DNA of 64,000 nt from Deltaproteobacteria bacterium. GTDB lineage: Bacteria > Desulfobacterota > Desulfobulbia > Desulfobulbales > JAGXFP01. The stretch lies in assembly GCA_020056965.1 (NCBI GenBank), contig JAGVGT010000024.1, positions 1 through 64,000 of the forward strand, read 5' to 3'. Below, one piece after another: positions 12,637 to 62,192 of this stretch. The notes beneath the pieces are model-generated. The model was given only the letters and a program-made list of their open reading frames with translations, was not told the DNA's origin and searched no databases. Position numbers and translations under genes: made by a program. Within the stretch, counting starts at the first letter, position 1. Each line of letters begins with the position of its first letter.

Positions 12637-12661
12637 GGGAAAAGCGAGGAAAGCGACAATA

Positions 12662-13330: not shown

Positions 13331-13528
13331 AATATATAGGCATTGTTCCGAATGTCTTGGCCAATGGTGTCCTAAACTCTTTTCAAGAGACCTCATTCAT
13401 GGGATGATGGGGCTGTTCGCATTAGGTTTTCTAAAGGCTAAAATCAGCGGATTTTCCGATATTTTATCAACTGGAGGGTGGCGGCTTCGCGAGGGCCGAC
13501 ACTTTCCCCAGACTTAACGGGTGATGAG

Positions 13529-13980: not shown

Positions 13981-14138
13981 ATTTCTCTCTCCTTTACCCC
14001 CCCCTCTTTGCTGTGACGCGGTAAAATTTATTGCGTAGGTCGTACCTCCTTGGGTAATACTGCAAGTAATCTTGCGGTAGACACCCGGCGTGGCATTAGT
14101 CCCGGTTGCCGGTGTAGTTCCGCTAACGGGGGGTATGG

Positions 14139-38759: not shown

Positions 38760-40061
38760 ATGCGCGGATTGAATCGATTCTTGTTGTTGGTGGTGAGCGG
38801 AGTGCTTTTATGGATGTCCGGCGGAACCGCCAAGGCGGTTGAACCCGTTGCCCCTTCGTCCCAACTTGATCACCTGCTGGCCGCCGCTTTGGCGGACAAC
38901 CCGGAACTTAAAAGCGACCAGGCCCGCTGGGATGCTTTTCTGCATAAGGCCAGACAGGCCGGCAGCCTGGATGACCCTATGTTGATGCTACGGTTCCAGA
39001 ACCTCTTGATCCGCGATCCTCTGGCCTTCGACCGCGACAGTACCAGCGCCAAGGTCATCGGCGTCACCCAGATGGTGCCCTTCTATGGCAAGCGCGGACT
39101 GGCCAAGGAGGCGGCTGCCCAAGACGCTGAAGCGGCCCGCTGGGGCCTGGAGGAACGTAAGGTGGAGTTGGCCGCCATGGTCAAGGAGTCCTGGTACCAA
39201 CTCCTCTTCATCGACCGCTATCTGGAGATCATCGAAAAGAACATCGCCATTCTTGACGACCTGAGCCGTTACAGCGAGTCGCTGTACGGCCTGGGCAAGG
39301 GCCAGCAGCAGGATGTCCTCAAGGCCCAGCTGGAACGAACCAAGATGGAGGAGATGCGCATCAGCCTTGGGCAAAAACGGCGCAGTCTGGCTGCTACCAT
39401 TAATACCCTGGCCTTTCGCCCGGCTGATACCCCGATCACCCCTGATTCACCGCTGGAGCTGACCCCACTTGCCCTGACCGCTGTCGAGCTTGAGCAACTG
39501 GCCGAAGCCAACCGGCCGCTGCTCAAGAGTGTCGCGGCCCAGGCCGGCAAGGCCAAGGCCATGCGCAGTCTGGCGGCCCGGGAAATCTATCCGGATTTCA
39601 CCTTCTCCTTTGAGTACATGCAGCGCAATTCCAGCGAGATGGATCCTGACGGCTACGACATGTACTCGACCGGGGTCACCTTCAATCTGCCGCTGCAGCA
39701 CGACCGGCGCCGCGCCATGGTGGCCGAGGGTGAGGCCGACACCCGCATGGCCGAAGCGGACCGGGAGATGGCCCTGAACCGTATCCGCCTGGGGATCGGT
39801 GACGCTCTGGCCCGCTTGGAGGGCAGCCGCAACCTTGCCCGGTTATATGATCAGGGGATTATCCCCCAGGCCAATTCGTCTTACGAGGCGACTCTGACCT
39901 CTTACCGGGCCGGCAAGGCTGAGTTTATGAGCGTCCTGGACAGCCGCATGGCGGTTTTTAATTACGAACGGGAATATCACGACGCCGTGGCCGAGCATCA
40001 AATGCAGCTGGCCCGGCTGGAGGCAGTGGTGGGAACCTCTCTCTCAACGCCGGTTCAATGA
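38760..40061 (+). CDS. Outer-membrane efflux protein of a heavy-metal RND system (CusC/CzcC-like)
   Basis: A 433-aa TolC-superfamily protein with a signal peptide ending GTAKA and two OEP repeats of long helices (LLAAALADNPELKSDQARWD, and a later SYEATLTSYRAGKAEFMSVLD). It forms the outer-membrane duct of the tripartite pump. GGAG precedes the ATG, and 12 bp separate it from the adaptor gene. It belongs to the HME-linked CzcC/CusC group by context. Confidence 0.9.
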   Translation: MRGLNRFLLLVVSGVLLWMSGGTAKAVEPVAPSSQLDHLLAAALADNPELKSDQARWDAFLHKARQAGSLDDPMLMLRFQNLLIRDPLAFDRDSTSAKVIGVTQMVPFYGKRGLAKEAAAQDAEAARWGLEERKVELAAMVKESWYQLLFIDRYLEIIEKNIAILDDLSRYSESLYGLGKGQQQDVLKAQLERTKMEEMRISLGQKRRSLAATINTLAFRPADTPITPDSPLELTPLALTAVELEQLAEANRPLLKSVAAQAGKAKAMRSLAAREIYPDFTFSFEYMQRNSSEMDPDGYDMYSTGVTFNLPLQHDRRRAMVAEGEADTRMAEADREMALNRIRLGIGDALARLEGSRNLARLYDQGIIPQANSSYEATLTSYRAGKAEFMSVLDSRMAVFNYEREYHDAVAEHQMQLARLEAVVGTSLSTPVQ

Positions 40062-40073
40062 GCCGGGAGAAAA

Positions 40074-41534
40074 ATGGACACGCAAATGAAAATCGCCGGT
40101 AAAACAATTGGGTTACTGGTCAGCGCTTCCCTGGTTTCAGCGCTGATTTCGGGCTATTACTTCGGCTGGGTGCATCATCCACCCCATCCGGGCGACGACC
40201 ATAAAGGTGAACAAACCGGGGAGAAAGGTGTCGTCAAGCTCCAATACACCTGTGCCATGCATCCCTTTATTATTCGTGATCAGCCGGGCAACTGCCCGAT
40301 CTGCGGGATGATTCTTACCCCGGTTGTCCCCGGGAGCGGCACGGCTCCCGGAACGCGGCGGATTAAGCACTGGGTCTCCTCCATGGATCCCACTTATATC
40401 CGGGACGCCCCAGGCAAGGACAACATGGGCATGGATCTGGTGCCGGTCTACGAAGAAGGCGATGCAGCCAACCAGATCCTCATCGACCCGGTGACCATCC
40501 AGAACATGGGGGTGCGTTTGGCCCCGGTGGAGAAGCGCAATATCTCCCGCACCATCCGCACGGTCGGGCTGGTCGCCTACGACGAACCCCGCCAGTATTC
40601 AGTCAACAGCAAGGTTGAGGGCTGGGTCGAGATGTTGCACGTCAACGCCACCGGGCAACCGGTCCGTCAGGGCCAGCCCCTCTTGGAGATCTACAGCCCC
40701 GATCTGGTGGCGGCCCAGCAGGAGTACCTGCTGGCCCTGGCCAACAGCAAGCGGCTGGCCGCCAACCCCTATCCCGAGATCGCGTCTGGGGCTGGACGCT
40801 TGCTGGAGGCAGCCCGCACCCGGCTCAGTTACTGGGATATCGATGAGCCACAGATTGCCGCCCTCACCGAAACCGGCCAGATCCGTAAGAGCATGACCCT
40901 GTACAGCCCCAACGGCGGGGTGGTCACCATGAAAAAGGTGGTCGAGGGCATGCGGGTGATGGCTGGCGAGGAGTTGCTGCAGATAGCCGATCTTTCCCGG
41001 GTCTGGGTCATCGCCGAGCTCTACGAGCACGACCTGCCGCTGGTCCGGGTCGGCCAGAGCGCCACCGTGGAGATCCCCTCCGCTCCTGACCGGAAGTTAC
41101 AGGGCCGGATCACCTACATCTATCCTTCGGTGGAGAACGAAAGCCGCACCGTCAAGGCGAGAATCGAATTCGCCAACCCCGGTCTGGAACTAAAACCGGA
41201 GATGTACGCCAATGTGATCATAGCCACCTCGGCCCAGGGCGACGCCCTGGTGGTGCCGGGCGGGGCCGTGCTGCGCTCTGGTAAGGGGGCCACGGTCTTC
41301 GTCGCCCTGGGCGAAGGGCGTTTTGAACCACGGGTGGTGCAGACCGGCATGAGCGATGAGGCGGGCAATCTGCAGATCCTTTCCGGCCTGAAAGAGGGCG
41401 AAAAGGTGGTGACCTCGGCCCAGTTCATGCTCGACTCCGAGAGTCGCCTGCAGGAGGTGCTCCGCAAGATGACCGCGCCGACGGCCGCTGATGTTCCACC
41501 GGCGGCGGAAAATCCCGAGGATCTCTTTAAATGA
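40074..41534 (+). CDS. Heavy-metal RND periplasmic adaptor with two metal-binding modules (CusB-like)
   Basis: A 486-aa membrane-fusion protein. After an N-terminal TM anchor come a His-rich segment (HHPPHPGDDH) and a heavy-metal-binding module, Y-T-C60-A-M-H-P ... C74-P-I-C77-G-M. A second degenerate copy follows (SMDPTYIRDAPGKDNMGMDLVPVYE) in which Cys is replaced by Met/Asn. The barrel-sandwich and beta-barrel domains follow. Met-rich second copies are typical for Cu(I)/Ag(I) adaptors. It links the outer-membrane duct to CusA. Confidence 0.92.
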   Translation: MDTQMKIAGKTIGLLVSASLVSALISGYYFGWVHHPPHPGDDHKGEQTGEKGVVKLQYTCAMHPFIIRDQPGNCPICGMILTPVVPGSGTAPGTRRIKHWVSSMDPTYIRDAPGKDNMGMDLVPVYEEGDAANQILIDPVTIQNMGVRLAPVEKRNISRTIRTVGLVAYDEPRQYSVNSKVEGWVEMLHVNATGQPVRQGQPLLEIYSPDLVAAQQEYLLALANSKRLAANPYPEIASGAGRLLEAARTRLSYWDIDEPQIAALTETGQIRKSMTLYSPNGGVVTMKKVVEGMRVMAGEELLQIADLSRVWVIAELYEHDLPLVRVGQSATVEIPSAPDRKLQGRITYIYPSVENESRTVKARIEFANPGLELKPEMYANVIIATSAQGDALVVPGGAVLRSGKGATVFVALGEGRFEPRVVQTGMSDEAGNLQILSGLKEGEKVVTSAQFMLDSESRLQEVLRKMTAPTAADVPPAAENPEDLFK

Positions 41535-41711: not shown

Positions 41712-44700
41712 ATGCTTGAAAAAATCATCGGCTGGTCGATCAACAACAAGTTCATGGTGGTGCTGGCCACCGTCTTCGTGGTGGCCGGCGGCTTCTATGC
41801 CCTGAAAAACACCCCGGTGGACGCCATCCCCGATTTGTCGGACGTCCAGGTCATCGTCTTCACCGAATACCCGGGCCAGGCCCCCCAGGTGGTGGAGGAC
41901 CAGGTTACCTATCCGCTCACCACCAAGATGCTCTCGGTGCCGGGCTCCAAGGTGGTGCGCGGCTACTCCTTTTTCGGCTACTCCTTCGTCTACATCATCT
42001 TCGAGGACGGTACTGACATCTACTGGGCCCGCTCCCGGGTTCTCGAATACCTGAACTATGCCTCCGGCCGCTTGCCCAAGGGGGTAACGCCGGTCCTCGG
42101 CCCCGACGCCACCGGGGTGGGCTGGGTCTACGAATACGTCCTGGAAAGCGATCGCCACAATCTCCAGGAACTGCGCTCGCTGCAGGACTGGTACCTGCGC
42201 TATGAACTGACTTCGGTGGAGGGCGTCTCCGAGGTGGCCAGTCTGGGTGGCTTCGTCAAGCAGTATCAGGTGGCGGTGGATCCCAACCGCCTGCTGGCCT
42301 ACAAGATCCCGATCACCGAACTGATGATGGCGATCCGCAACAACAACCTCGACGTCGGCGGCGGGGCCATCGAAAACTCCGAAACCGAGTATGTCATCCG
42401 CAGCCACGGCTACATTAAGACCCTGGACGACATCCGCAATATCGTGGTGATGACTACGCCCAGCGGCACCCCGGTACTGGTGCGCGACCTGGCCGAGGTC
42501 CGCCTGGGGCCGGAGATGCGGCGGGGGGTGGCCGAATACAACGGCAACGGGGAGGCGGTGGGCGGCATCATCGTCATGCGCTTCGGGGAGAACGCCCTCA
42601 AGACCATCGAGGGGGTCAAGAAGAAGCTCAAGGAGCTGGAGGGTGGTCTGCCAGCCGGGGTGAAGATCAAGGCGGTCTACGACCGTTCCGGGCTGATCAA
42701 CCATGCCGTCGATAACCTGCGGGAGAAGCTGATCGAGGAGAGTATCGTCGTCGCCCTGGTCACGGCCATCTTCCTCTTCCACCTGCCCAGCGCTTTTGTT
42801 GCCATCTTCACCCTGCCGGTCGCCATTTTGATGGCCTTCATGGTCATGCGCGCGCAGGGCATCAACGCCAACATCATGAGCTTGGGCGGCATCGCCATCG
42901 CCATCGGGGCGATGATCGACGCCGCCATCATCATGATCGAAAACGCCCATAAACACCTGGAGCGGGATCGGGGCAAGAAGCCGCACTGGCAGATCATCAC
43001 CGATTCGGCCCAGGAGGTAGGCCCGACCCTCTTTTACTCGCTCTTGGTGATCACCGTCTCCTTTCTGCCGGTCTTTACCCTCCAGGAACAGGCCGGGCGG
43101 CTCTTCAAACCCCTGGCCTTCACCAAGACCTATGCCATGGGCGCCGCCGCTCTGTTGTCGATTACCATCGTGCCGGTGCTGATGGGCTGGTTCATCCGCG
43201 GCAACATCAAGCCGGAACACGCCAATCCGGTCAACCGGCTGTTGATTAAGCTTTACCATCCGGTGGTCGATCTGGTCCTTAGATGGCGCAAGACCACCAT
43301 CCTCCTGGCCGTGCTGGCGATCATCTCCATCGCCTGGCCTTTAAGCCGGATGGGCTCCGAGTTCATGCCGCCGCTCTACGAGGGCGACCTGCTCTACATG
43401 CCGACCACTCTGCCGGGGCTGTCGGTGACCAAGGCCCGGGAGATCCTCCAGGAAACCGATCGGATCATCCGCCAGTTTCCCGAGGTGGAGCAGGTCTTCG
43501 GCAAGATCGGCCGGGCCGAAACCGCCACCGATCCGGCCCCGATGATGATGATCGAAACCACCATCACCTTAAAACCCGAAAGTGAGTGGCGCAAGGCCCC
43601 GGTTCCCCGTTTCTACGCGGGCTGGCCGGAGTGGAGCAAACCGCCGCTGCGGCTGCTCTGGCCGGACCAGCAGACCATCAGCGTCGAGGAGCTGATCCAG
43701 CAGTTGAACCAGGCCGTGCGCTTCCCGGGGTTGACCAATGCCTGGACCATGCCGATCAAGACCCGCATCGACATGCTCTCGACCGGCATCAAGACCCCGG
43801 TGGGCATCAAGATCATGGGTGATGACTTGACCGTCCTCAATGGCCTGGGCGAGCAGGTGGAGGCGGTAATTCGCCACGTGCCCGGCACCATGTCGGCCAT
43901 CGCCGAACGGGCGGTGGGCGGTTATTTCCTCGATTTCCAGATCGATCGGAGCGCCACCGCCCGTTACGGGGTGAACATCAGTGATATCCAGGAGATCTTC
44001 CAGGCGGCCATCGGCGGCATGAAGGTCACCGATACGGTTGAGGGGCTGGAGCGCTATTCGGTCAACGTCCGCTACGATCGCGATTTCCGCAGTGATCTCG
44101 ATTCCCTGGGGCGGTTGTTGGTGCCGGCGGCCGGCGGCCGCCAGATTCCCCTGGTCCAGCTGGGCAAGTTCAGCATCAAGAACGACCCGGACAGCATCAA
44201 GACCGAGAACGCCCGGCGTACTGTCTGGGTCTATGTGGACATCCAGGGCAGCGACCTCGGCAGCTATGTCGCCAAAGCCAAGGCGGCGGTGGCGGCCCAG
44301 GTAAAGCTGCCGGCCGGCTACAACATCGTTTGGAGCGGCCAGTTCGAATACATGGAAAAAGCCCGCTCGCGGCTGCTGGTGATCATCCCCTTTACCATTC
44401 TGATCATCTTCGTGATCATCTTCATGAACACCAAGTCGCTGATCAAGACCGGCATCGTCTTTCTGGCCGTGCCTTTCTCGCTGGTCGGAGCCTTCTGGTT
44501 CCTTTACCTTCTGGACTACCACACCTCGGTGGCGGTCTGGGTAGGGGTGATTGCCCTGGCCGGGCTGGACGCCGAAACCGGGGTGGTGATGCTGCTCTAC
44601 CTCGACCTGTCCCACAAGCTCTGGGATAAGTCCGGGCGGATGGTGACCCGGGGCGATTTGATCCAGGCCATCCACCACGGGGCGGTAAAAAGGATCCGGC

Positions 44701-44927
44701 CCAAGATCATGACCATCTCGGTGATCATTGCCGGTCTCTTGCCGATCATGTGGAGCCACGGGGCTGGGGCTGACGTGATGAAGCGCATCGCTGCGCCGAT
44801 GGTGGGCGGGGTGGTGACCTCCGGAATCATGGAACTGGCGGTCTATCCGGTGATTTTTTTCATCTGGCGCTCCCGGAAGTTGCAGAAGGAGATGACGGTC
44901 ACTGATATCGGTGATCCGCATGAGTAA
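41712..44927 (+). CDS. cusA: Heavy-metal RND transporter, CusA/CzcA family
   Basis: A 1071-aa inner-membrane proton-driven pump of the HME-RND family. Twelve TM helices with two large periplasmic loops; the TM4 motif AIAIGAMIDAAIIMIENAHK contains the Asp and Glu of the proton relay. EFMPPLYEGDLLYMP and the Met cluster APMMMIETT in the porter domain resemble the Met pathway of Cu(I)/Ag(I) pumps. Monovalent copper or silver is the likely substrate, supported by the Met-bearing adaptor and small Met/His-rich protein, but not proven. Its ribosome site is weak. Confidence 0.95.
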   Translation: MLEKIIGWSINNKFMVVLATVFVVAGGFYALKNTPVDAIPDLSDVQVIVFTEYPGQAPQVVEDQVTYPLTTKMLSVPGSKVVRGYSFFGYSFVYIIFEDGTDIYWARSRVLEYLNYASGRLPKGVTPVLGPDATGVGWVYEYVLESDRHNLQELRSLQDWYLRYELTSVEGVSEVASLGGFVKQYQVAVDPNRLLAYKIPITELMMAIRNNNLDVGGGAIENSETEYVIRSHGYIKTLDDIRNIVVMTTPSGTPVLVRDLAEVRLGPEMRRGVAEYNGNGEAVGGIIVMRFGENALKTIEGVKKKLKELEGGLPAGVKIKAVYDRSGLINHAVDNLREKLIEESIVVALVTAIFLFHLPSAFVAIFTLPVAILMAFMVMRAQGINANIMSLGGIAIAIGAMIDAAIIMIENAHKHLERDRGKKPHWQIITDSAQEVGPTLFYSLLVITVSFLPVFTLQEQAGRLFKPLAFTKTYAMGAAALLSITIVPVLMGWFIRGNIKPEHANPVNRLLIKLYHPVVDLVLRWRKTTILLAVLAIISIAWPLSRMGSEFMPPLYEGDLLYMPTTLPGLSVTKAREILQETDRIIRQFPEVEQVFGKIGRAETATDPAPMMMIETTITLKPESEWRKAPVPRFYAGWPEWSKPPLRLLWPDQQTISVEELIQQLNQAVRFPGLTNAWTMPIKTRIDMLSTGIKTPVGIKIMGDDLTVLNGLGEQVEAVIRHVPGTMSAIAERAVGGYFLDFQIDRSATARYGVNISDIQEIFQAAIGGMKVTDTVEGLERYSVNVRYDRDFRSDLDSLGRLLVPAAGGRQIPLVQLGKFSIKNDPDSIKTENARRTVWVYVDIQGSDLGSYVAKAKAAVAAQVKLPAGYNIVWSGQFEYMEKARSRLLVIIPFTILIIFVIIFMNTKSLIKTGIVFLAVPFSLVGAFWFLYLLDYHTSVAVWVGVIALAGLDAETGVVMLLYLDLSHKLWDKSGRMVTRGDLIQAIHHGAVKRIRPKIMTISVIIAGLLPIMWSHGAGADVMKRIAAPMVGGVVTSGIMELAVYPVIFFIWRSRKLQKEMTVTDIGDPHE

Positions 44928-44989
44928 TAGAGATACAGATCCCAGTAGATAAGGACCTTGCGCAAACCAAAACATCAGAGGTGCAGAGT

Positions 44990-45493
44990 ATGAATGCAAA
45001 AGTTTCCAGGATAGCGAGAATTTTGTTGGCGGCAGCCCTGCTTGGTGGCGTACCGGCTCTGGCCGCCGCTGAGCATGGCTCCATGTCCGGCATGGACCAT
45101 GGCAGTTCCGGCTCCATGGCCGGCATGTCCCATGTCTCAAAGGGCGCTGGGCAGATCCTGATCGGCAGCGACAGCCGGGATGGAGTCAGGGGTACCGCCC
45201 ATCTCGACAATATCAGCAAGGCCATGGCTGAGCTGGGCCGGAAGGAAACCCATCACCTGATGGTCACCTTCAAGGAAGACAAGGGCGGCAAGGGGATTGA
45301 CAGCGGGGCGGTGGCGGTGAAGGTCACCGATCCGGCCGGGGCGAAGGGCGAGGCGATCAAAATGCTGGCCATGGAAGGTAGCTTCGGCACCGATCTGACC
45401 TTGAGCAAACCCGGCAAGTATCTCTTCGAGATCGGCAGCAAACTGGCCGACGGCAAGACTCGGCAGTTTCGTTTTGAGTATACGGTGAAATGA
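44990..45493 (+). CDS. Exported Met/His-rich YtkA-like protein
   Basis: A 167-aa secreted protein. The signal ends at PALAAA; the mature N-terminus is a flexible Met/His/Gly/Ser stretch (EHGSMSGMDHGSSGSMAGMS) suited to bind Cu(I)/Ag(I). The rest is a beta-sandwich like YtkA/FixH-type domains (HHLMVTFKED, GSFGTDLTLSKPGKYLFEIG). AGAGGTG precedes the ATG at 44990. As the last gene of the RND operon it probably acts as a periplasmic metal chaperone comparable in role to CusF (inference). Confidence 0.75.
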   Translation: MNAKVSRIARILLAAALLGGVPALAAAEHGSMSGMDHGSSGSMAGMSHVSKGAGQILIGSDSRDGVRGTAHLDNISKAMAELGRKETHHLMVTFKEDKGGKGIDSGAVAVKVTDPAGAKGEAIKMLAMEGSFGTDLTLSKPGKYLFEIGSKLADGKTRQFRFEYTVK

Positions 45494-52226: not shown

Positions 52227-52439
52227 TTACTGCTCGCAGCAGCCACAATCACAACTAGGTTGGTGATCGCTACTGTGACTAGCGTGATCAGCCGTCAACC
52301 CCAACCTTTGAGTGAGTATCAGCCGCAGATCCGGCGGCGCAGTCAGCAGGCAATGGGTTAAGGCCGCCTCTTGCTCGGGGCTGTCGGGGGCAGAGGTCAG
52401 GCAGATATGCAGGGCTTCGGCAAACGATGAAAATTGCAT
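52227..52439 (-). CDS. Small hypothetical protein with Cys-rich tail
   Basis: A 70-aa protein starting MQFSSFAEALHICL, mostly helical, with a His/Ser linker and a C-terminal CDCGCC cluster. GGAG lies nine bases before the ATG and it ends 57 bp before rnhA on the same strand, which favours a real gene. The tail could bind metal. I do not recognise the family. Confidence 0.55.
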   Translation of the reverse strand: MQFSSFAEALHICLTSAPDSPEQEAALTHCLLTAPPDLRLILTQRLGLTADHASHSSDHQPSCDCGCCEQ

Positions 52440-52606
52440 GGATTTATCTCCAGGGCGCCACAATCATGGGAACCGGTGCTGGCAACTATAGAAATTGAGC
52501 GGTCAGTTCTGAAATTTAGGGGTCATAAATAGATGCTTGCGCACTTTTTAAGTGCTGGTCTGGGCATGAACCATGAATATTGACCGGCTAACCGGATAAC
52601 CCTTTT

Positions 52607-53809
52607 CTACTCATCTTTCAGGGCCAGCAGCGGTTCTTCCTTGGCCAGTCGGTAGATGGGTACGATGGCCCCGATCAGGCATACTCCGGCGCCGACGATG
52701 ATCGCCAGTAGGCTGAGGAAGATGCTGGCCGCTGAGGTCACTGGCATGTTGCCGAGGCGGCTCATCAGGGTGAAGTCGCGGGCCAGGATGTTCAACAATA
52801 GATGGCCGGCCACCACCCCGAGCAGGCCACCCAGGAAGCTGATAATGGCCGCTTCGGTGACAAACATTTTAATGATGTGACCGCGGCTGGCCCCGATGGC
52901 CCGCAAGATTCCCACCTCACGGCGGCGTTCATTGGTGATGGCGGTAAAAGTCGACCAGGCCAGCAGGATCGAGAGGGTCGAGGCGATCATGATGGTGATC
53001 GCGAAAATTCTGATGATGTCGCGCAGGGTAGCCCGGATATCCTTACCGATGCTGCCCCTGGTCATCAATCCCACCTGCGGGTTGACCGAGCGAATCTTGG
53101 TCATGGCCGTATCCAAGTCCACGCCCTCCTTGAGCTTCAGAAAGACAATGGAAATCTCCTTGGCCTTGCGCTGGCCGGTGGCCTCGGTGGAGATTGAGTC
53201 CAAGTCCTCCCGGCGCATGAAGAGACCGTGATCGAGGCCGGTGCCGGTTTCGGTTAGGTGCCCCACCACCTTGATGCTCTTGCCGAAGAGGGTGGCGGTA
53301 TTGATCAGTCCCAGGTACTCATGGACGTAACTGCCCACGTAAATCTCACCGGCTTTGAGTTCCGCCTTGGTGTCAAGCCAGGGCTTAATGACGAAATCGG
53401 TCTTCTGGTCGATGGCCACTACCTGCCCGGCGACGATGCTGCAACATCCAGATTCCAGAGTGTTCAGATAAATGTGGTAGGTGGCCTGTTCGACCTCCGG
53501 CAGGTCTTTCAGGGAGTCATAGACGAACTCGTCCATGTAGAAGGTCTTTTCGTTGCTCTCTAGAATGAACTCTTCGGCCAGATCGACGGCCTCGGCCGGC
53601 ACCACCACGATGTCGGCTCCGAGTTTGCGGGAGGCCTCCTTAATGTCTTCCTGGATGGCCCGGTTGAAGAGCAGGGCGAAAACCAGGAGGGCGACCAGCA
53701 TGGCAACGGCCAGCACCAGGATGAGATTGCGAAACATCTTCCTGGTCACGCTTTTCCATGCTACGGCCGCCAAGGAATTGACTTTGGGAGGCTTGAGCGA
53801 TTTCGGCAA
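52607..53809 (-). CDS. FtsX/MacB-type ABC permease with CC motif (locus B)
   Basis: A 400-aa inner-membrane protein with the same plan as the locus A permease: TM1 about 27-50, outer domain 51-275, three TM helices at the end. Shared features include KLGADIVVVPA, FYMDE after it, the double cysteine C122-C123 (ESGCCSIVAGQ) and DFVIKPWLDT, which matches DFTVMPWLEK of the locus A protein. Its likely ATPase is the divergent gene at 55495. It follows the cytochrome B gene on the same strand beyond a terminator. Confidence 0.85.
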   Translation of the reverse strand: MPKSLKPPKVNSLAAVAWKSVTRKMFRNLILVLAVAMLVALLVFALLFNRAIQEDIKEASRKLGADIVVVPAEAVDLAEEFILESNEKTFYMDEFVYDSLKDLPEVEQATYHIYLNTLESGCCSIVAGQVVAIDQKTDFVIKPWLDTKAELKAGEIYVGSYVHEYLGLINTATLFGKSIKVVGHLTETGTGLDHGLFMRREDLDSISTEATGQRKAKEISIVFLKLKEGVDLDTAMTKIRSVNPQVGLMTRGSIGKDIRATLRDIIRIFAITIMIASTLSILLAWSTFTAITNERRREVGILRAIGASRGHIIKMFVTEAAIISFLGGLLGVVAGHLLLNILARDFTLMSRLGNMPVTSAASIFLSLLAIIVGAGVCLIGAIVPIYRLAKEEPLLALKDE

Positions 53810-53833
53810 TTTGTTTCCCTAGCGTTGTTTTTT

Positions 53834-53871
53834 AAAAAAAAGAGGGGGACTCGAAAGTCCCCCTCTTTTTA
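53834..53871 (-). terminator. Intrinsic terminator after cytochrome B
   Basis: AGAGGGGGACT and AGTCCCCCTCT form an 11-bp perfect stem around a four-base loop, with a long T run on the minus strand (and TTTTT on the plus strand). It separates the cytochrome B gene from the permease, as in locus A. Confidence 0.88.
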
Positions 53872-53906
53872 GCACAAAATTTCAACTGCGGTAAGAATAA
53901 ATCCTC

Positions 53907-55082
53907 TTACTTGAAGTTGCCGTCCAAGCCGCAGAGTACGGCGTGCTCCTCGATGCCTTCAGCCTTATGGCAGGCCTGGCAAACTGAGGTCGGTCCGCCA
54001 ATGAACTTTTTGGCGGCAACGTCATACAGTTTAAGCTGACCGTCCATGGTGAACTCGCCGTCCTTGGGCTTCTGCGGGTTTTCGCAGGAGTCGCCGACGG
54101 CCTTGGTCCGTGAGGTGGCGATGACGTACTTGCCGTCCGGGGTGAACATGGCGTCGTGGTTCTCTTCCAGGTTGGCCATGGGCTCCACGTCGATGGCCTG
54201 GAGGGTCTTGGCGTCAACCAGGAAGAACACACTGCCGCCGGAGGCCGCGATCAGGGAATCATCCGGTGAATAGAATGTCCGGAAGGTCACGGAATTAGGC
54301 ATGCCAGCAACAGTACCCTTGTTAAGGGTCTTGACCTCGCCCTTGGTCAGCTTGGCCAGGTCGAGCTCAACCAGGTCCATCTTGCCGCTGGTCTTGCCGT
54401 GCATCTTGTCGGCGGCATTCTTGACCACCAGCAGCTTGGTCTGGGCGTGGTTGGTGTTGCCGTGATAGAACTTGTAGGGGCCGGTGTCGGCGTCGGTGCC
54501 TTCCAGGAAGACCCGCTGGGTCCGCTTGAGGTCGGACTTGTTGAACACGTCAATATAGGCCGCGCTGGTCATGGTCATCGGGATGAAAGAATCCTTGGAC
54601 TGGCCGGAACCGCAGTACATGGCCTTGGAGTCGGTGGCCTTGGCATCTACGTCGATGACCACATCCTGAATGATCTTGCCGGTCTTGAGGTCGGTCTTGC
54701 CGACGTGGACTCCGTTGGCGGCCTTGTCGACCTTGTAAGTTGACCACAGCAAGGTGTTGCGGTCATTCCTGTCGATGCGGGCGTCATGGACGGGATGAGT
54801 GTCTTTGGTGCCGATGTCGATCTTGGTCAGTTTGGTGACCTTGATCGGCTGGGCGGCGGTGGGATCAATTATTGCCTCGGCCTGGGCGAAGTGACCGCCC
54901 ATGCCGGCCACGTAGAAGGTGGCCTTGTAGAAGCTGGGAGCCGCGGCTGCCGCCGGGGCGCTGGCTGCCGGTGCGGCCGGGGGTTTGTCGCCCATGGCGA
55001 AGACGTTGGTAAGTCCGAATACTCCCAATGCCGCCGCGCCGGTCAGCATTGAGCCCACCAATAACTTTTTCGAAACTTTCAT
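53907..55082 (-). CDS. Exported beta-propeller monoheme c-type cytochrome (copy B)
   Basis: A 391-aa secreted protein. A Sec signal (MKVSKKLLVGSMLTGAAALG...) is followed by an Ala/Pro-rich linker and then KATFYVAGMGGHFAQAEAII, the counterpart of IAYIAGHGGHLAIIDL in copy A. Blade-like strands include KMDLVELDLAK and GQLKLYDVAAK. Near the end C368-Q-A-C371-H372 binds heme c, followed by HAVLCGLDG. Additional Cys lie in MYCGSGQ and DSCENPQ. AAGGAGG precedes the ATG at 55082. The promoter block is almost identical to that of copy A. Probably periplasmic; role unknown. Confidence 0.8.
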   Translation of the reverse strand: MKVSKKLLVGSMLTGAAALGVFGLTNVFAMGDKPPAAPAASAPAAAAAPSFYKATFYVAGMGGHFAQAEAIIDPTAAQPIKVTKLTKIDIGTKDTHPVHDARIDRNDRNTLLWSTYKVDKAANGVHVGKTDLKTGKIIQDVVIDVDAKATDSKAMYCGSGQSKDSFIPMTMTSAAYIDVFNKSDLKRTQRVFLEGTDADTGPYKFYHGNTNHAQTKLLVVKNAADKMHGKTSGKMDLVELDLAKLTKGEVKTLNKGTVAGMPNSVTFRTFYSPDDSLIAASGGSVFFLVDAKTLQAIDVEPMANLEENHDAMFTPDGKYVIATSRTKAVGDSCENPQKPKDGEFTMDGQLKLYDVAAKKFIGGPTSVCQACHKAEGIEEHAVLCGLDGNFK

Positions 55083-55206
55083 GCATTCCTCCTTAAGGAT
55101 TTGAGTTGCGGCGGTGCACCCTTGTCTTGGTTGCCGCCGGGCCTTCACTTGTTTTGCCCAACATGAAATGAAGGGAATTAACAATTGATGCTTGATCCGA
55201 TCTTCC

Positions 55207-55254
55207 ACCACAACGTGGTATGTAATGGGTACCCCCCCTGCGACAATCTGTCAA
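55207..55254 (-). promoter_or_regulatory. Promoter/operator block B, shared with locus A
   Basis: On the minus strand TTGACA (55254-55249) begins a block whose first 25 bases equal those at 9145-9169, followed by a variable 7-mer and the palindrome CATACCACG-T-TGTGGT. It lies about 125 nt upstream of the cytochrome B ATG. Conservation of promoter-like and palindromic parts across about 46 kb indicates control by the same factor. Confidence 0.65.
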
Positions 55255-55353
55255 TATGAATTTCCCCGTCAGACATCACTTATCTGACTTTGCTCTGAAT
55301 AATAAATGGAAAAGAGGGCGGTCCAGTCTGTTCGATTTTCGACGGAATTGCCG

Positions 55354-55416
55354 CTTGCGCAAATTCCCCCTTTGATATAGTCTTTGCCCGTGGCCGCAGG
55401 GCGGTAAAACGGCCAC
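55354..55416 (+). promoter_or_regulatory. Possible promoter and leader hairpin of the ATPase-NosL operon
   Basis: TTGCGC (55354-55359) and TATAGT (55376-55381) could be a suboptimal -35/-10 pair (16-bp spacing). Just downstream GTGGCCG (55390-55396) pairs with CGGCCAC (55410-55416). Weak evidence; included because the plus-strand operon starting at 55495 must have a promoter here. Confidence 0.3.
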
Positions 55417-55494
55417 AGTCACGGTGAGCTTGATAATTGATTGCTGTCGCTGCTATTCTCAAGCGTCACTCCCCCTTACTGACGATGGTCTTTC

Positions 55495-56196
55495 ATGACA
55501 CTTATCGAATGTCGCGATCTTCTTAAGGTTTACCCGGTTGACGGCCAGGATTTTCGCGCTGTCGATGGAGTCTCCTTTGGTGTGGAGGAGGGGGATTTTG
55601 TCGCCATTCTCGGCCACTCCGGATCAGGCAAGACCACCCTCCTGAGCCTGATCGGCGGGCTGGCCCGTCCTGATCGGGGAGAGGTTCTGGTTGCCGGGCG
55701 TAACTGCTGGGCTCAGAGCGATGCCGAACTGGCAGTGATGCGTAACGCCACCATCGGTTTTATCTTCCAATTTGGTAGCCTGATTCCCACCCTGACCGCT
55801 CTGGAGAATATTCTTTTACCCCTCTCCTTTGCCGGTTCTCTTGCCGCGGAGCGGGAAAGCACAGCTCTGGCGCTGGAATTACTCGACCAAGTAGGGCTGT
55901 CCGAAAAGGGCAACGCCTTTCCCGCCCAACTTTCCGGCGGCCAGCAGCGGCGGGTGGCTATCGCCAGGGCCTTCATCAACCGGCCCCGCATCATTCTGGC
56001 CGATGAGCCCACCGGCGATCTCGACGAGGAGACCGAGCGGGAGATTCTTAAACTCTTCCGCTATTATAATGAAACGGTGGGAACTACTTTTCTGGTCGTC
56101 ACCCACAACAGCCAGCTGACCGAGAGCCAAAAGCGGCCCCGCACTTTCGCCATGAAAAATGGTCGACTCAGTGAAACTACCGTCAGGGGGCAGTAA
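55495..56196 (+). CDS. ABC transporter ATPase, LolD/MacB type (locus B, first)
   Basis: A 233-aa ATPase with Walker [22 protein letters not shown], signature [14 protein letters not shown], Walker [17 protein letters not shown] and VTHN. It is closer to the locus A ATPase (shared [18 protein letters not shown] and DEETEREI) than to the second ATPase at 58681, so it probably serves the CC-type permease at 52607, transcribed divergently. The next gene starts 2 bp after its stop. Confidence 0.92.
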
Positions 56197-56198
56197 AA

Positions 56199-57188
56199 AT
56201 GCGCCGATTATTTCGCCAGTCCTGTTTCCTGGTCGCCATTGTTTTGACCGGTCTGGTGGTTCTCTCTGCCTGTTCCCGTGGAGAAAACAAGCTGGCGGTG
56301 GGTGATTCCGGACCAGACTTTCTTGTCGAGGATCTCGACGGACACGCCGTTCGACTCTCCGAGTTGCGCAATCGACCCGTGGTGCTGCGCTTCTTCGTCA
56401 CCGATTGCAAGTTCTGCCGGGCCGACACCGGAGTTTTCAGCGATTATTACCGTAAGCACCAGGCGCAGGGGTTGGAGGTGATTTACATCACCACAACCAC
56501 CGACCGCGACCAGGTCAGAGCCTTCTCCAAAGAATTGCAAATTCCTTTTCCGGTGGTTATTGACTACAACCGCAAGGTATCTCAGGCTTACAACATCAAA
56601 GTTGAGCCACAGACTGTGATCCTGGGCACCGACCATCGCATCAAGGGGGCCATCCTCGGCGGGGTTGGCGAGAAGGAGTTGGATGAGGTCCTTGGCGTGC
56701 TCTGGGGTAGCGTTGGGCCGGCCAGCTCGGTTGCTGGTCCCGTCGCCGTGCCGGCTGATCTCCGCGATCACCTGAAAGATGATGCCAGATGCCCGGTTTG
56801 CGGCATGTTTGTCGCCAAATTTGAGGTGTGGGTCACCAGGATTGAGATCGCCCCAGGCGAATTCCTCGATTTCGATGGGGTCAAGGATCTTCTGGCCTAC
56901 TACTTCAAGCCCACTGCTTACGGCGGCAATGAATTGCCGGCTGCCAGCCGAATCTGGGTCAAGGACTACTATTCTTTGAAGTGGTTGGATGCCAAAGAGG
57001 CCTTCTTCGTCTCCGGCAGCGACGTTAACGGCCCCATGGGTTCCGAGTTGATTCCTTTTGCCAACCGAGCGGCCGCGGAATCATTCCTGACCGACCATCA
57101 TGGCAAAAGGGTGACTGCCTTTGCGGAAATCACCCCGGGCTTGGTCGAGGAGCTGCGGGGCGGCGCCCAGATGAAGCCGGGAGCATAA
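56199..57188 (+). CDS. Thioredoxin (TlpA/AhpC-like)-NosL fusion lipoprotein
   Basis: A 329-aa lipoprotein (lipobox VVLSAC25). Residues about 35-170 are a TlpA/redoxin domain (GDSGPDFLVEDLDG) with the active-site pair C70-K-F-C73. Residues about 185-320 are a NosL domain with C198-P-V-C201-G-M203, FDGVKDLLAYYF and GPMGSELIPF containing M280. NosL binds Cu(I) and helps assemble the copper sites of nitrous oxide reductase in denitrifiers; TlpA-type domains reduce disulfides needed for metal loading. Fusing them suggests one protein that both reduces a thiol site and delivers copper on the outer face of the membrane (inference). No nosZ is in the window. Confidence 0.9.
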   Translation: MRRLFRQSCFLVAIVLTGLVVLSACSRGENKLAVGDSGPDFLVEDLDGHAVRLSELRNRPVVLRFFVTDCKFCRADTGVFSDYYRKHQAQGLEVIYITTTTDRDQVRAFSKELQIPFPVVIDYNRKVSQAYNIKVEPQTVILGTDHRIKGAILGGVGEKELDEVLGVLWGSVGPASSVAGPVAVPADLRDHLKDDARCPVCGMFVAKFEVWVTRIEIAPGEFLDFDGVKDLLAYYFKPTAYGGNELPAASRIWVKDYYSLKWLDAKEAFFVSGSDVNGPMGSELIPFANRAAAESFLTDHHGKRVTAFAEITPGLVEELRGGAQMKPGA

Positions 57189-57191
57189 CCG

Positions 57192-57494
57192 ATGCGGCCT
57201 TCGCTGCTCCTGGCTTTACTCCTACTTGCCATAGGCATCCTTGACGTCGGTCTCTTGCTGCAGTCTGGGCAACAGCGGGCGGCCTGGCCGGTGCGCATGG
57301 CCTCGGCCGGGATTGCTACCGAGGCCTTGGGTTTGACAGATCTCTGCATTGCTACCGAAGCCCGTTATACCCGGCACCCAGCCGTCTCCGACCCGCTTGC
57401 CCCCTTCATGGATCATCCCGGTGGACTGGAGCATTTCCCCACCGGCTCCTTTTGGGCCTATCCGTGGCAACACCTGCGGGGAGCCAGTTTGTGA
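57192..57494 (+). CDS. Small exported or membrane-anchored protein of unknown function
   Basis: A 100-aa protein. The first about 25 residues are hydrophobic (LLLALLLLAIGILDVGLLL) and form an anchor or signal. The rest contains a Cys (LTDLCIATEARYTRHP) and a C-terminal HPGGLEHFPTGSFWAYP stretch. The stop overlaps the GTG start of the next permease (GTGA), so it is translationally coupled and probably a dedicated subunit. I do not recognise the family. Confidence 0.75.
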   Translation: MRPSLLLALLLLAIGILDVGLLLQSGQQRAAWPVRMASAGIATEALGLTDLCIATEARYTRHPAVSDPLAPFMDHPGGLEHFPTGSFWAYPWQHLRGASL

Positions 57495-58672
57495 ACTTCC
57501 TCCTCGAAAAACAGCTCAACCTGCTTGATTACGCCTTGGCCTCGCTGTGGCGCCGCAAGCTCAAGAACCTGGGGATCATGAGTGTCTTCGCGGGGGTGAT
57601 TTGCCTGGTTGCCTCCTTCCAGTTCCTCACGGCCAGTTTAACCGCCACCGCCCAGGATTTGTTGGCCGAGGCCCCGGAAATCGTGGTCCAGCAGATGTCG
57701 GCCGGGCGCCAGGAGGCATTGCCGCTCAGCTATCTATCCAGCCTGGAAGAGTTGAACGGCGTCCGCACCGTCGCCCCGCGCATCTGGGGTTACTACTTCA
57801 GCGAAATTTCCGGCGCCAACTATACAGTGTTGGCGGTGGATCCGAGCGTTATGCCCAAAGGCGACCGGCTGTTTCAGGCCGTGGAAGGCCAGCTGCCGAG
57901 CGGACCGGGCGAGGCGGTGTTGGGCAGCGGGGTGGCCGCTGACCTCAAGTTGGCAGGGCGGCGGAGCTTTTCCCTTTTTCGGCCGGATTTGACCTTGAAG
58001 CCAATGCAGATGGTCGGGGTCTTTAAGCCCGATACCGACCTGCTCACCGCCGACCTGATCTACACCACCCCGGACGCGGCCCGTGATCTCTTCGCGATTC
58101 CCGCCGACCATTGCACCGACCTCTGTGTTTACGTGGCCAATCCCCGTGAGATCGGGACCATCGCCAAAAAGATTTCTGTCATCTTGCCCGGCACTCGGGT
58201 ACTGACCCGGCCCCAGATCAGCCAAACCTACCGGGTGGTCTTCGGCTGGCGCAGTGGTTTTGCCTCGATCTGTCTGCTGAGTGCCTTGGCCGCCTTTGTG
58301 ATTCTCGCCTGGGACAAGGCCTCTGGCCTCTCGGCCGAGGAGAAGCGGGAGATTGCTATCCTCAAGGTTCTGGGTTGGCAGACCGGTGACATTCTACTCC
58401 TGCGCTGCTGGGAAAGTCTGATTGCGGCCGGGTTGGCCTGGCTGCTGGGTTGCACTGCCGCCTATCTGCATGTCTTCTGGCTGGGTGGCGCGCTCTTTAA
58501 GCCGGTGATGTTGGGCTGGTCGGTGATCCATCCCCAGCTGCGGTTGCTGCCGGTAGTGTCCACCGCAGATCTGTTGCTGATCTTCACCATGTCGGTGGTG
58601 CCATATCTCGCTGCCACCGTGATTCCGGCCTGGCGGGCCGCGATTACCCCGCCAGATGCAGCGATTCGCTAG
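57491..58672 (+). CDS. FtsX-type ABC permease (locus B, second)
   Basis: A 393-aa permease: TM1 about 27-50, outer domain about 55-255, and C-terminal TM helices about 258-278, 312-345 and 360-385. The outer domain has APEIVVQQMSAGR, a YYFSEISGANYTVLAVDP strand and a C208-T-D-L-C212 pair. It differs from the two CC-type permeases but keeps EKREIAILKVLGWQ, the FtsX coupling helix. I start at GTG 57491, which overlaps the preceding gene and has GGGGAG at good spacing, rather than at the longer TTG. Its partner is the ATPase at 58681. Confidence 0.88.
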   Translation: MNFLLEKQLNLLDYALASLWRRKLKNLGIMSVFAGVICLVASFQFLTASLTATAQDLLAEAPEIVVQQMSAGRQEALPLSYLSSLEELNGVRTVAPRIWGYYFSEISGANYTVLAVDPSVMPKGDRLFQAVEGQLPSGPGEAVLGSGVAADLKLAGRRSFSLFRPDLTLKPMQMVGVFKPDTDLLTADLIYTTPDAARDLFAIPADHCTDLCVYVANPREIGTIAKKISVILPGTRVLTRPQISQTYRVVFGWRSGFASICLLSALAAFVILAWDKASGLSAEEKREIAILKVLGWQTGDILLLRCWESLIAAGLAWLLGCTAAYLHVFWLGGALFKPVMLGWSVIHPQLRLLPVVSTADLLLIFTMSVVPYLAATVIPAWRAAITPPDAAIR

Positions 58673-58680
58673 GGGGTGAG

Positions 58681-59373
58681 ATGGCCGACAGTGTTGACAT
58701 GATCGTGCTTGACTCGGTAAGCAAGATTTACAATCGGGGCCGATTGAACGAGGTCACGGCCCTGCATGAGGTGAGCCTCGCAGTTGCCTCCGGCAGCATG
58801 GTCTGTCTGCGCGGGGCCAGCGGGTCGGGAAAATCAACCCTGCTCTCGATCATCGGCTGCGTTATCCCGCCCAGTAGCGGCCGGGCGATCATCGCCGGCA
58901 AGCCGCTCTCCAGGCTGCCCGACCGTTTTCTCACCATCCACCGGCGCAGCCATATCGGCTTTATCTTCCAACAGTTCAACGTCTTGCCAGAGCTGACTGT
59001 GCTGGATAACGTCACCCTGCCGCTACTGCCCTTAGGCGTCGGGCCGGCGGAACGGCGGCGGCGGGGCGGTGAACTGCTGGCTGGCCTGGGCATCGACCAC
59101 CGGGCTAGCTTTCCGGCCGGACAGATCTCCGGCGGCGAGCTGCAGCGGGTAGCTATCGCCCGGGCTCTGATCAACGATCCCCCCATAATTTTGGCCGACG
59201 AGCCTACCGCTCATCTCGACAGTAAATTAAGCCGGGAATTTATGGCCACTATGGCTGAACTGAAACGAGGAGGTAAGACCATCGTCATCGCCTCCCACGA
59301 TTCCTTGGTCACCGACAGCCCAGACCTGGACCGGATTATCAACGTCAAAGACGGCCGGATCGATGTTTCTTAG
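58681..59373 (+). CDS. ABC transporter ATPase, MacB/LolD type (locus B, second)
   Basis: A 230-aa ATPase with Walker A GASGSGKST, FIFQQFNVLPELTVLDNV, signature ISGGELQRVAIARAL, Walker [13 protein letters not shown] and ASHD. It starts 8 bp after the permease stop and overlaps the following membrane protein gene by 11 bp. It pairs with the permease at 57491. Confidence 0.92.
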   Translation: MADSVDMIVLDSVSKIYNRGRLNEVTALHEVSLAVASGSMVCLRGASGSGKSTLLSIIGCVIPPSSGRAIIAGKPLSRLPDRFLTIHRRSHIGFIFQQFNVLPELTVLDNVTLPLLPLGVGPAERRRRGGELLAGLGIDHRASFPAGQISGGELQRVAIARALINDPPIILADEPTAHLDSKLSREFMATMAELKRGGKTIVIASHDSLVTDSPDLDRIINVKDGRIDVS

Positions 59374-60382
59374 TATCTGGAGCCTGGCTCTGACCTTTTG
59401 CGGGGCCATTGCGTTGTTCCTGGTCGCGGTGGCCGCTCGCACCGGCTGGCGGGTTTTGCGTCACTGGGACCCGGCCAGCGACGACTCGCTGCAGATCAGC
59501 TTGGAAAGTGAAACCTGGCTAGCCTCTACCCTGGTTGAATACGGGCTGGCCCTGCAGATCCTGAGCCTGCTGCTCTTTATCCTGGCCGCCGATCAGTTCA
59601 GCCAGGTGATTGCCGGGGCCATGTGCGCCACCGGCAGCTTGATGGCCGATCCCTACGGGATGCCAACCTTGTATGTCAAGCTGGCCGGGGTTTTTCTTTA
59701 TGGCTTTTGGCTGCTCCTGCATCAGCTCGATATCCGGGTTGAGACTTATCCTCTGGTCCGAATCAAATTTATTTACTTGTTGGTCCTGCTGCCTTTTCTG
59801 CTGGCTGACGTCACACTACAGACCCTCTTCATAGCGGGACTCAAGCCGGACATCATCACCTCCTGCTGCTCGGTGGTCTTCGCCGAGGCCGGTCCCGACA
59901 GCGGCAACCTCATGGGGATCCTGCCGAACGAACTCATGCTGGCTGTTTACTACTTGGCCATCCTAGGGTTGGCGATGGTCGGGATCCTATTACTCTATGG
60001 TGGCTGGGTGGAACGCTTCCGGACGTTGCTCATCAGCGTCTACACCTTGGGCTGGTTTGGCTTCTTTTTTCTGGCCCTGACGGTGATCACCGCGATCATC
60101 TCTTGCTACATCTACGCTATGCCGAACCACCGCTGCCCCTTCTGCATCATCAAACCGGAGTACCACTACATCGGTCTGGGCATCTACGCTACACTGATCG
60201 GCGGTGCTTTTTTCGGCTCCTCCATTGGCGTTGCCGCCTTGATCGGCCGCCGTCCTGACCTGACCAGGCCAGTCGCGCGCTATCGGCGGGTGGCGATCAA
60301 AATATCCTTATCCCTTCTGGCGGTCTTCACCATTCTCTCCTCCTACCACTATCTGCGCTACCTCTTCGTCGGCGGTGAATAA
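59363..60382 (+). CDS. Cys-rich polytopic membrane protein, possibly DsbB/VKOR-like in function
   Basis: A 339-aa protein with about eight TM helices. Conserved-looking Cys motifs sit at loops: M-C88-A-T-G-S-L-M-A-D-P-Y-G, S-C168-C169-S, and H-R-C258-P-F-C261-I-I-K-P-E-Y-H. A C-P-x-C pair beside a TM helix recalls DsbB and VKOR, which pass electrons between quinone and periplasmic thiols, but the overall sequence is not one I recognise. As last gene of an operon with a thioredoxin-NosL protein, it may be that protein's redox partner (inference). Its start overlaps the ATPase end by 11 bp. Confidence 0.75.
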   Translation: MFLSIWSLALTFCGAIALFLVAVAARTGWRVLRHWDPASDDSLQISLESETWLASTLVEYGLALQILSLLLFILAADQFSQVIAGAMCATGSLMADPYGMPTLYVKLAGVFLYGFWLLLHQLDIRVETYPLVRIKFIYLLVLLPFLLADVTLQTLFIAGLKPDIITSCCSVVFAEAGPDSGNLMGILPNELMLAVYYLAILGLAMVGILLLYGGWVERFRTLLISVYTLGWFGFFFLALTVITAIISCYIYAMPNHRCPFCIIKPEYHYIGLGIYATLIGGAFFGSSIGVAALIGRRPDLTRPVARYRRVAIKISLSLLAVFTILSSYHYLRYLFVGGE

Positions 60383-60772: not shown

Positions 60773-60811
60773 AAAAAAGGTCGCCGAGAGGGATAACTCT
60801 CGGCGACCTTT
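60773..60811 (-). terminator. Intrinsic terminator of the multiheme cytochrome gene
   Basis: AAAGGTCGCCGAGAG (60776-60790) pairs perfectly with CTCTCGGCGACCTTT (60797-60811) around a six-base loop; the minus strand continues with T residues. It lies 30 bp after the cytochrome stop. Confidence 0.9.
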
Positions 60812-60841: not shown

Positions 60842-62080
60842 TTAATTACCCTTAGTGGTGTGACAGAAGAAACAACCAGTTCCATCGGCAGCCCCGGCAT
60901 TATGGGCATTCATTTTTGTGTAGTTGAAACGCAGGGCATCAGGATATTGGGTTGCGTGGGCGCGATGGCAGGAAAGACACATAACCTGATCGCCATATTC
61001 AATTGTATTGGTGTTTGCGGTTGGATCCTGAGCCACCGGAATAGTACGATCATAAGCCCCAGCCATGGCAGCATACTCACCACCTGGATCAAAGGGGATA
61101 TTGACGTTGGTCGGATGGCGCAGCCAAGGGTTGGAGGCAGAGTTGGCGGAAATTAGTCCGACTCCTCCTTCAGTATTATAGTCACCGCCGTCATCGCCAG
61201 GGCCGAAGAAATTAGCTTCACCGGTCACGTGGAAATCCGTGTGGCAACCGGCACAGAAGGTTCCCATGGAGTCTTTAACCGTGATATCGGTCTGTTTCTT
61301 ATAGATGTTGTGACCAGTTGAGGTCGGGTGCTCCCAAAGAGGATCTTCATTGGCTTGGTTAACACCACCATCAACAATATCTACACCTGGAGGGCCAAAA
61401 CCATCTGCACCGTGACCGCCTAGGAAACGGTAGGATTGATCGGCAGAATTGTGATGGCCGACCTTGTTATGGCACCCTTTGCAGCCATTAAATTTACCCT
61501 GGCTGATTGCATTGTAGTTGAAATCATCACCAGCAGCTATCTCGACATCGTCAAAAGCCAGGCTTTGGTGGCAACCATTTCCGCAACCAGGGTTCTGTGA
61601 GCCTGGAGTATCAACTGGAAAATGGGTATCATGACCAGCGATCCCACCAACGTTGTGCCCGTAAACATCAGCAGCGCCAGTGTTTAGGGCGAAATTGCCG
61701 CCTGCCAAGGCATCAGCCGGGTAGGCGCCGCCCATATTGAAAACAATCGGAACCTTATTGCCATTTCCATCATCTACAATGGTGTTGGTGTTGCCAACGG
61801 TGGCGGAATGACAACCAACACAATCGCTTTTTAACAACTGTGCACGTTCGGCATGGTTGGCGCCACCCGTTAGTTGCGCGGAAGCATTCCAGCCGGCGCC
61901 GGCCCCCACCTCAACCTGGACTGAGCCGTTCTGGCTGTTATGCATGGTATGACAGTTTGCGCATGGCCCTTTTACCGTGGCCATCGCAACGGTTGCAAAC
62001 ATCCCGGAAACAAGAAGTGTTGCCCCTGTAACCCCCAGTAACTGCGAAAATCTACCTCTTTTATTCCCCTTAACTTTCAT
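60842..62080 (-). CDS. Exported seven-heme c-type cytochrome
   Basis: A 412-aa secreted protein with a signal ending in VAMA. Heme sites are C-A-N-C-H (from C40), C-V-G-C-H, C-G-N-G-C-H (a CX3CH site), C-K-G-C-H, C-A-G-C-H, C-L-S-C-H and C-F-F-C-H, seven in total, spread along the chain and separated by Gly/Asn-rich loops. The architecture is that of extracellular or periplasmic multiheme cytochromes of metal- or sulfur-respiring bacteria. ATG 62080 is preceded by GGGGGG. It is transcribed alone and ends in a strong terminator. Partner unknown. Confidence 0.9.
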   Translation of the reverse strand: MKVKGNKRGRFSQLLGVTGATLLVSGMFATVAMATVKGPCANCHTMHNSQNGSVQVEVGAGAGWNASAQLTGGANHAERAQLLKSDCVGCHSATVGNTNTIVDDGNGNKVPIVFNMGGAYPADALAGGNFALNTGAADVYGHNVGGIAGHDTHFPVDTPGSQNPGCGNGCHQSLAFDDVEIAAGDDFNYNAISQGKFNGCKGCHNKVGHHNSADQSYRFLGGHGADGFGPPGVDIVDGGVNQANEDPLWEHPTSTGHNIYKKQTDITVKDSMGTFCAGCHTDFHVTGEANFFGPGDDGGDYNTEGGVGLISANSASNPWLRHPTNVNIPFDPGGEYAAMAGAYDRTIPVAQDPTANTNTIEYGDQVMCLSCHRAHATQYPDALRFNYTKMNAHNAGAADGTGCFFCHTTKGN

Positions 62081-62192
62081 CTTGTTTTCCCCCCAAGGAA
62101 GCAATTATGTAAATGGTTAAGTGGTGACTCTGACTAAAAAACATCCGCATGTTACCGTGTTTGGTGTGCATATGTCAACACTGAAATTGTAA

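Follow-up and report, generated by a model that had tools for sequence, protein, structure and literature searches.

A putative copper-handling NosL-ABC transporter operon of Desulfobacterota, joined in one order to a separate haem propeller module

Introduction

Copper delivery to periplasmic cuproenzymes and the control of Cu(I) in anaerobes are, to our knowledge, only partly known, NosDFY-NosL being the one ATP-driven example that has been worked out. That system pairs NosL, a Cu(I) lipoprotein, with an inner-membrane ABC transporter. The CXXCXM motif of clade II NosL has been assigned to Cu(I) binding (PMC6530538), and in Parageobacillus NosDFY-NosL occurs without NosZ, the relay being proposed to serve a client other than NosZ (PMC13068155). 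Another described system with a similar parts list is the Fet iron uptake system of C. jejuni (fetMP-fetABCDEF), in which a Cys-bearing membrane protein is accompanied by two FtsX-type permeases, an ATPase and TlpA proteins (PMC10783030, PMC6083913); some Fet clusters also include a cytochrome gene (PMC6083913).

Here we analyse a locus at positions 52607-60382 of a 64,000-nucleotide stretch of a Desulfobacterota genome (the window). A preliminary description had interpreted its genes as one system, plausibly an extracytoplasmic copper or thiol maturation machine, with a composition not known from any described system. We find that the locus is a merger of two separable modules, not one system. 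Module 1 is a five-gene core in the order NosL-small-permB-atpB-mem, and module 2 consists of cytP, permA and atpA.

Results

Gene organization of the locus

The existence, strands and family types of the eight ORFs proposed earlier were confirmed by ORF calls and profile matches, as was the near-zero or overlapping spacing of the plus-strand genes (Table 1). Coordinates were close overall, and two starts had to be moved. cytP starts at 55082, preceded by an AGGAGG ribosome site, rather than at 55211; permB starts with GTG at 57491 rather than at 57452, as judged from its ribosome site and homologues, and overlaps the small gene by four bases. The proposal that cytP and permA form a simple operon did not hold, because a near-perfect 15-bp hairpin followed by a U-run separates the two genes on the minus strand (-25.3 kcal/mol, z -5.9). 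This terminator-like element suggests that the two are unequally expressed.

Table 1 Features of the locus and of the copper-gene context in the window.
Feature	Position	Strand	Evidence or context
permA: FtsX/MacB-type permease, module 2	52607..53809	-	PF02687 7.8e-23
Hairpin, intrinsic-terminator-like, between cytP and permA; attenuator or terminator	53828..53880	-	folding energy
cytP: exported beta-propeller, one haem site, module 2	53907..55082	-	alignment + AF2 model
atpA: MacB/LolD-type ATPase, permA partner, module 2	55495..56196	+	PF00005 7.7e-33
TlpA/ResA-like thioredoxin domain (CKFC) fused to NosL domain (CPVCGM)	56199..57188	+	PF00578 3.1e-23; PF05573 1.3e-28
small: single-TM anchored protein, module 1	57192..57494	+	29-row alignment
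permB: FtsX/MacB-type permease, own clade, module 1	57491..58672	+	PF12704 4e-7, PF02687 1e-5
atpB: MacB/LolD-type ATPase, module 1	58681..59373	+	PF00005 7.1e-30
mem: 8-TM family, module 1	59363..60382	+	no Pfam/NCBIfam family; 40-row alignment
CusC	38760-40061	+	copper-gene context in window
CusB with heavy-metal-binding domain	40074-41534	+	copper-gene context in window
CusA RND	41712-44927	+	copper-gene context in window
Small exported protein, same strand as CusCBA set	44981-45493	+	

Two further features flank the locus. A small ORF ending in CDCGCCEQ (52227-52463), which has no family, adjoins permA, and an exported multihaem c-type cytochrome is encoded on the minus strand at 60842-62104, followed by a strong terminator-like hairpin at 60776-60811.

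A five-gene core conserved across the phylum

The mem protein was searched for in 395 genomes of the phylum, and genes were called in the neighbourhoods of about 40 matches. It is present in 59/395 Desulfobacterota genomes; searches of plasmids gave no match. The module 1 order recurs throughout these neighbourhoods and is kept at 33-40% protein identity across the phylum, which is more than chance. The tightest association is that of the ATPase with the membrane protein: atpB lies directly upstream of 41 of 43 mem genes, usually with a 4-base overlap. Alongside the same 43 mem genes, permB was found 39 times, small 35 times and NosL 32 times.

A separate search with the small protein matched 49/395 genomes, 47 of them mem-positive. 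With mem and small together in 47 genomes, small only in 2 and mem only in 12 (n=395), the co-occurrence is highly significant (p~5e-47), and the 12 mem-only genomes include ten with distant mem homologues that lack small, along with two fragmented assemblies. Tandem copies of the core occur in G285 (contig C57) and at L048, where several small, permB, atpB and mem genes lie within about 20 kb. Neither a copper system combining NosL with an FtsX/MacB-type transporter nor the mem family was found described in the literature searched, which covered few subscription papers; the earlier statement that no described system has this composition stands to the same extent. The five-gene operon is widespread but apparently undescribed.

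A rare second module separate from the core

The remaining three genes form a rare, order-level module that is separate from module 1: an ABC unit resembling FetBCD, together with a haem propeller protein. cytP was found in 6/297 genomes, the source genome included. It lies with permA and atpA in G195, G240 and G218, and with permA and a divergent atpA in G088; these four loci carry no NosL, small or mem, and in the G088 and G218 genomes the mem search found no mem anywhere. Most core-bearing genomes are without cytP-permA-atpA. A split with 100/99 support in the permease tree separates permA from permB, and the permA side, where branches are long, also holds permeases found beside FtrD/FetA genes. 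The occurrence of cytP-permA-atpA away from the core, together with the permA/permB split, indicates two modules brought together in this one order, which the named relatives L033, L034 and L036 identify as Desulfobulbales.

The module 2 proteins have conserved cysteines of their own. cytP contains a single C-terminal CXXCH haem site (CQACH) and three cysteines that are invariant in the alignment (C157, C333 and C384). Its AF2 model is an all-beta propeller, for which the fold search returned generic propeller matches only, of low specificity. In permA a CC pair in the periplasmic domain (C122, C123) is conserved in 6/6 sequences, and C377 is also conserved.

These results bear on the idea of one integrated eight-gene machine that would unite the NosL core with cytP and permA/atpA. 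All parts are adjacent in the window and in five relatives (L033, L034, L036, L037 and L038), as such a machine would have them, but module 2 stands alone in four genomes, two of which (G088 and G218) are without the core, most cores lack module 2, the two permeases belong to different clades, and a terminator-like hairpin separates cytP from permA. We consider the integrated machine improbable, and as an obligate system it is largely refuted. The co-occurrence expected for one system was found in part: NosL, small, permB, atpB and mem go strongly together, whereas cytP-permA-atpA is found away from them.

The neighbours of permA in the tree also raise the alternative that the locus is a variant of a Fet-like iron uptake system. 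In addition to the similar parts list, the permeases beside FtrD/FetA domains match permA/atpA. However, no FTR1, P19 or FtrD (DUF2318) was found in the source genome (assembly 90% complete), permB lies in another clade, and NosL and the copper-gene context do not fit iron uptake. For the locus as a whole this explanation seems highly improbable; by ancestry, it could apply to module 2 only.

Conserved motifs in the module 1 proteins

The fusion protein carries a lipoprotein signal (LVVLSAC). Its NosL domain scores 100 bits against PF05573 (cut-off 24) and matches the P. stutzeri NosL structures. The CXXCXM motif is present as CPVCGM at the start of NosL, also in the homologues examined, and the protein probably binds Cu(I) there. 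The thioredoxin half matches ResA structures and carries its CXXC as CKFC. The fusion of TlpA to NosL noted previously is real, yet it was found only in the source window: TlpA and NosL are separate, adjacent genes in seven close relatives (L033, L034 and L037-L040, with the same placement in L036). While the NosL half belongs to module 1, TlpA is near only about 10/45 cores and is therefore best regarded as an accessory to the core, its assignment to a module being loose.

The mem protein has no match in Pfam, NCBIfam or PDB sequences. Its AlphaFold2 model is confident (pLDDT 92, pTM 0.89) and has eight long helices, and a Foldseek search with this fold gave no PDB match (best E 0.33). Cys88 (GAMC), Cys168-Cys169 (SCC) and Cys258 (HCPFC) are invariant in 40 sequences, and the loops that carry them are predicted to be periplasmic (K+R 4.2 vs 10.6 per sequence, positive-inside). 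The second cysteine of CPFC, Cys261, is replaced by Asp in 7/40 homologues. As read from the alignment, this pattern would fit metal ligands better than a redox dithiol.

The other two extracytoplasmic components differ in this respect. The small protein has a periplasmic TDLC..EARYTRHP...EHFP motif in the 29-row alignment, and its one cysteine is not conserved among the 29 homologues; in permB no cysteine is common to more than 8/39 homologues. The earlier claim that every extracytoplasmic component carries Cys pairs is thus borne out, as far as conserved cysteines go, for NosL, TlpA, mem, permA and cytP, and fails for small and permB.

The cysteines also bear on the alternative of a thiol-disulfide machine, in which mem would conduct electrons in the manner of DsbB/DsbD, with TlpA-NosL as its partner in the periplasm. 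CPFC in mem and CKFC in TlpA are what such a machine might use, and TlpA is adjacent in the order-level relatives. Its rarity beside other cores argues against this role, as do the Asp at Cys261 where Cys88, Cys168, Cys169 and Cys258 are invariant, a pattern more like metal ligands, and the lack of a significant fold match between mem and any solved structure. The thiol-maturation option of the preliminary description is accordingly weak, and we regard it as very improbable.

Copper genes around the core

The core recurs beside genes for nitrous-oxide reductase, multicopper oxidase and copper efflux, which makes the movement of copper outside the inner membrane its very likely role. That the core is about copper is, by this guilt by association, very likely, and the analogy to NosDFY/NosL drawn earlier, an extracytoplasmic copper-handling machine, gains support from a context rich in copper genes.

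Bona fide NosZ is present in only 4/395 genomes. In two of these four, from different families, a full clade II nos cluster has the core at its 3' end, about 10 kb away from nosZ, compared with ~0.001 expected per nosZ. The cluster order in both (L111 and L112) is Rieske, cytochrome b, cytochrome c, NosZ, NosD, NosF, NosL, NosY, TlpA, further NosL genes, small, permB, atpB and mem. With NosDFY and the core in the same nos clusters, the core coexists with NosDFY and is no substitute for it. The end of the L111 cluster (13999-15354 and 12658-13410) encodes fusions of NosL domains, one with an outer-membrane-barrel-like domain (Phenol_MetA_deg), another with a cytochrome c domain.

The source genome holds a second core copy (L114, contig C77, 3888-14772), preceded by SCO1, by a fusion of a binding protein to a cytochrome and by a multicopper oxidase (MCO) of 1339 aa; its mem gene apparently continues on contig C9 (L053). 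Elsewhere in this genome (L054:9858-10388, contig C22), a stand-alone NosL gene lies beside histidine kinase and response regulator genes, an arrangement similar in L037. Among 42 core loci we counted a second NosL of the CSLHC type at 18, SCO at 7, MCO at 3 and CusA at 12, and the corresponding counts at 15 FtrD control loci were 0, 0, 0 and 2. CusA adjacency (12/42 vs 2/15) is thus only modestly above that at control metal loci. A complete CusCBA set lies in the window itself, about 7 kb upstream of the locus.

NosZ occurs in 2/40 core-bearing genomes and was not found in the source genome (G000; assembly 90% complete), and haem-copper oxidase is missing from 14/40. Since most core genomes have no NosZ and many no haem-copper oxidase, the client must vary by genome. 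Haem-copper oxidase was considered as a general client and set aside, its association being weak (26/40 vs 15/40, p 0.025). CusA presence was uninformative as a co-occurrence test, because 78 of the 79 genomes tested have CusA-type RND pumps, whether they carry the core or not.

The same context suggests another alternative, a copper detoxification branch in which module 1 would strip Cu(I) from the inner-membrane surface or from periplasmic proteins and hand it via NosL to CusCBA, building no cuproenzymes. CusBA lies within about 9.5 kb of the 12 cores counted above, in several loci (L049, L066, L069 and L071) it directly adjoins two NosL genes and the core in the same orientation, the window has its CusCBA set, and many core genomes are without NosZ or haem-copper oxidase. 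On the other hand, the pumps are nearly universal whether or not a core is present, CusA also occurs at control loci, and maturation better explains why cores end nos clusters or come after MCO/SCO genes. We hold this branch to be unlikely.

Proposed mechanism

The reading we favour, and consider probable, is that of a two-module locus in which module 1 is an ATP-driven inner-membrane Cu(I) relay, like NosDFY/NosL with non-homologous parts, and module 2 is separate. In such a relay: (i) NosL, as a periplasmic lipoprotein, would present Cu(I). (ii) A permB2-atpB2 ABC core of the MacB/LolCDE mechanotransmission type would, as its family suggests, convert ATP hydrolysis into motion of the periplasmic domains. 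(iii) The small protein and mem, with its periplasmic Cys88, Cys168-Cys169 and Cys258, may form a docking and transit site where copper is taken from NosL or passed to it. (iv) Depending on the genome, the periplasmic partner that receives or gives up copper would be nitrous-oxide reductase, multicopper oxidase or Cus efflux. (v) TlpA, adjacent in relatives and fused to NosL here, may keep the Cu(I)-ligand cysteines reduced. As to direction, the nos and MCO neighbourhoods favour cuproenzyme maturation, and the CusBA neighbourhoods favour unloading toward Cus.

More tentatively, module 1 may represent a new class of machine that inserts (or extracts) copper at the expense of ATP. NosL would supply a MacB-type ABC transporter to which an 8-TM copper-binding protein without precedent is coupled, and the clients would be periplasmic cuproenzymes across Desulfobacterota, in some of them nitrous-oxide reductase. 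If true, NosDFY-NosL would have a non-homologous counterpart, likewise an ABC machine coupled to NosL, with a membrane protein whose fold matches no PDB entry; it would be present in about 15% of sampled Desulfobacterota genomes and would offer a testable system. In some clade II organisms it would also add parts to the maturation of nitrous-oxide reductase.

Comparison with known systems

Both transporter pairs, permB/atpB and permA/atpA, fall within the FtsX/MacB-type superfamily, as do MacB and LolCDE. The curated cut-offs for LolCE, LolD and MacB were not reached (permB 46 vs 362 bits for LolC/E; atpA 226 bits with the LolD model, under the cut-off of 308). Unlike in MacAB, the ATPase and permease are encoded by separate genes and there is no MacA-type adaptor, and permA and permB fall in separate clades of the permease tree, which also sets the locus apart from MacB/LolCDE.

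Module 2 resembles the FetBCD part of the Fet system of C. jejuni, and its permease and ATPase are similar to the ones encoded next to FtrD genes. The locus differs from Fet in that NosL is present here instead of FTR1, P19 and FtrD, and mem belongs to no Pfam family.

Module 1 resembles NosDFY-NosL in combining a NosL Cu(I) lipoprotein with an inner-membrane ABC transporter, and in L111 and L112 the nos cluster contains both systems. Unlike that system, the core has a permease of the FtsX/MacB type where NosY is of the ABC-2 type, is without the NosD beta-helix, includes two proteins, mem and small, that the described Nos systems do not contain, and mostly occurs without NosZ. Neither its ABC part nor small or mem belongs to the NosF, NosY or NosD families. 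NosDFY-NosL of Parageobacillus differs from module 1 likewise, as it uses true NosD and NosFY homologues. Because the unit has no NosD or NosY and the source genome assembly (90% complete) no NosZ, we regard the core as one that would work like NosDFY-NosL but is not a member of it.
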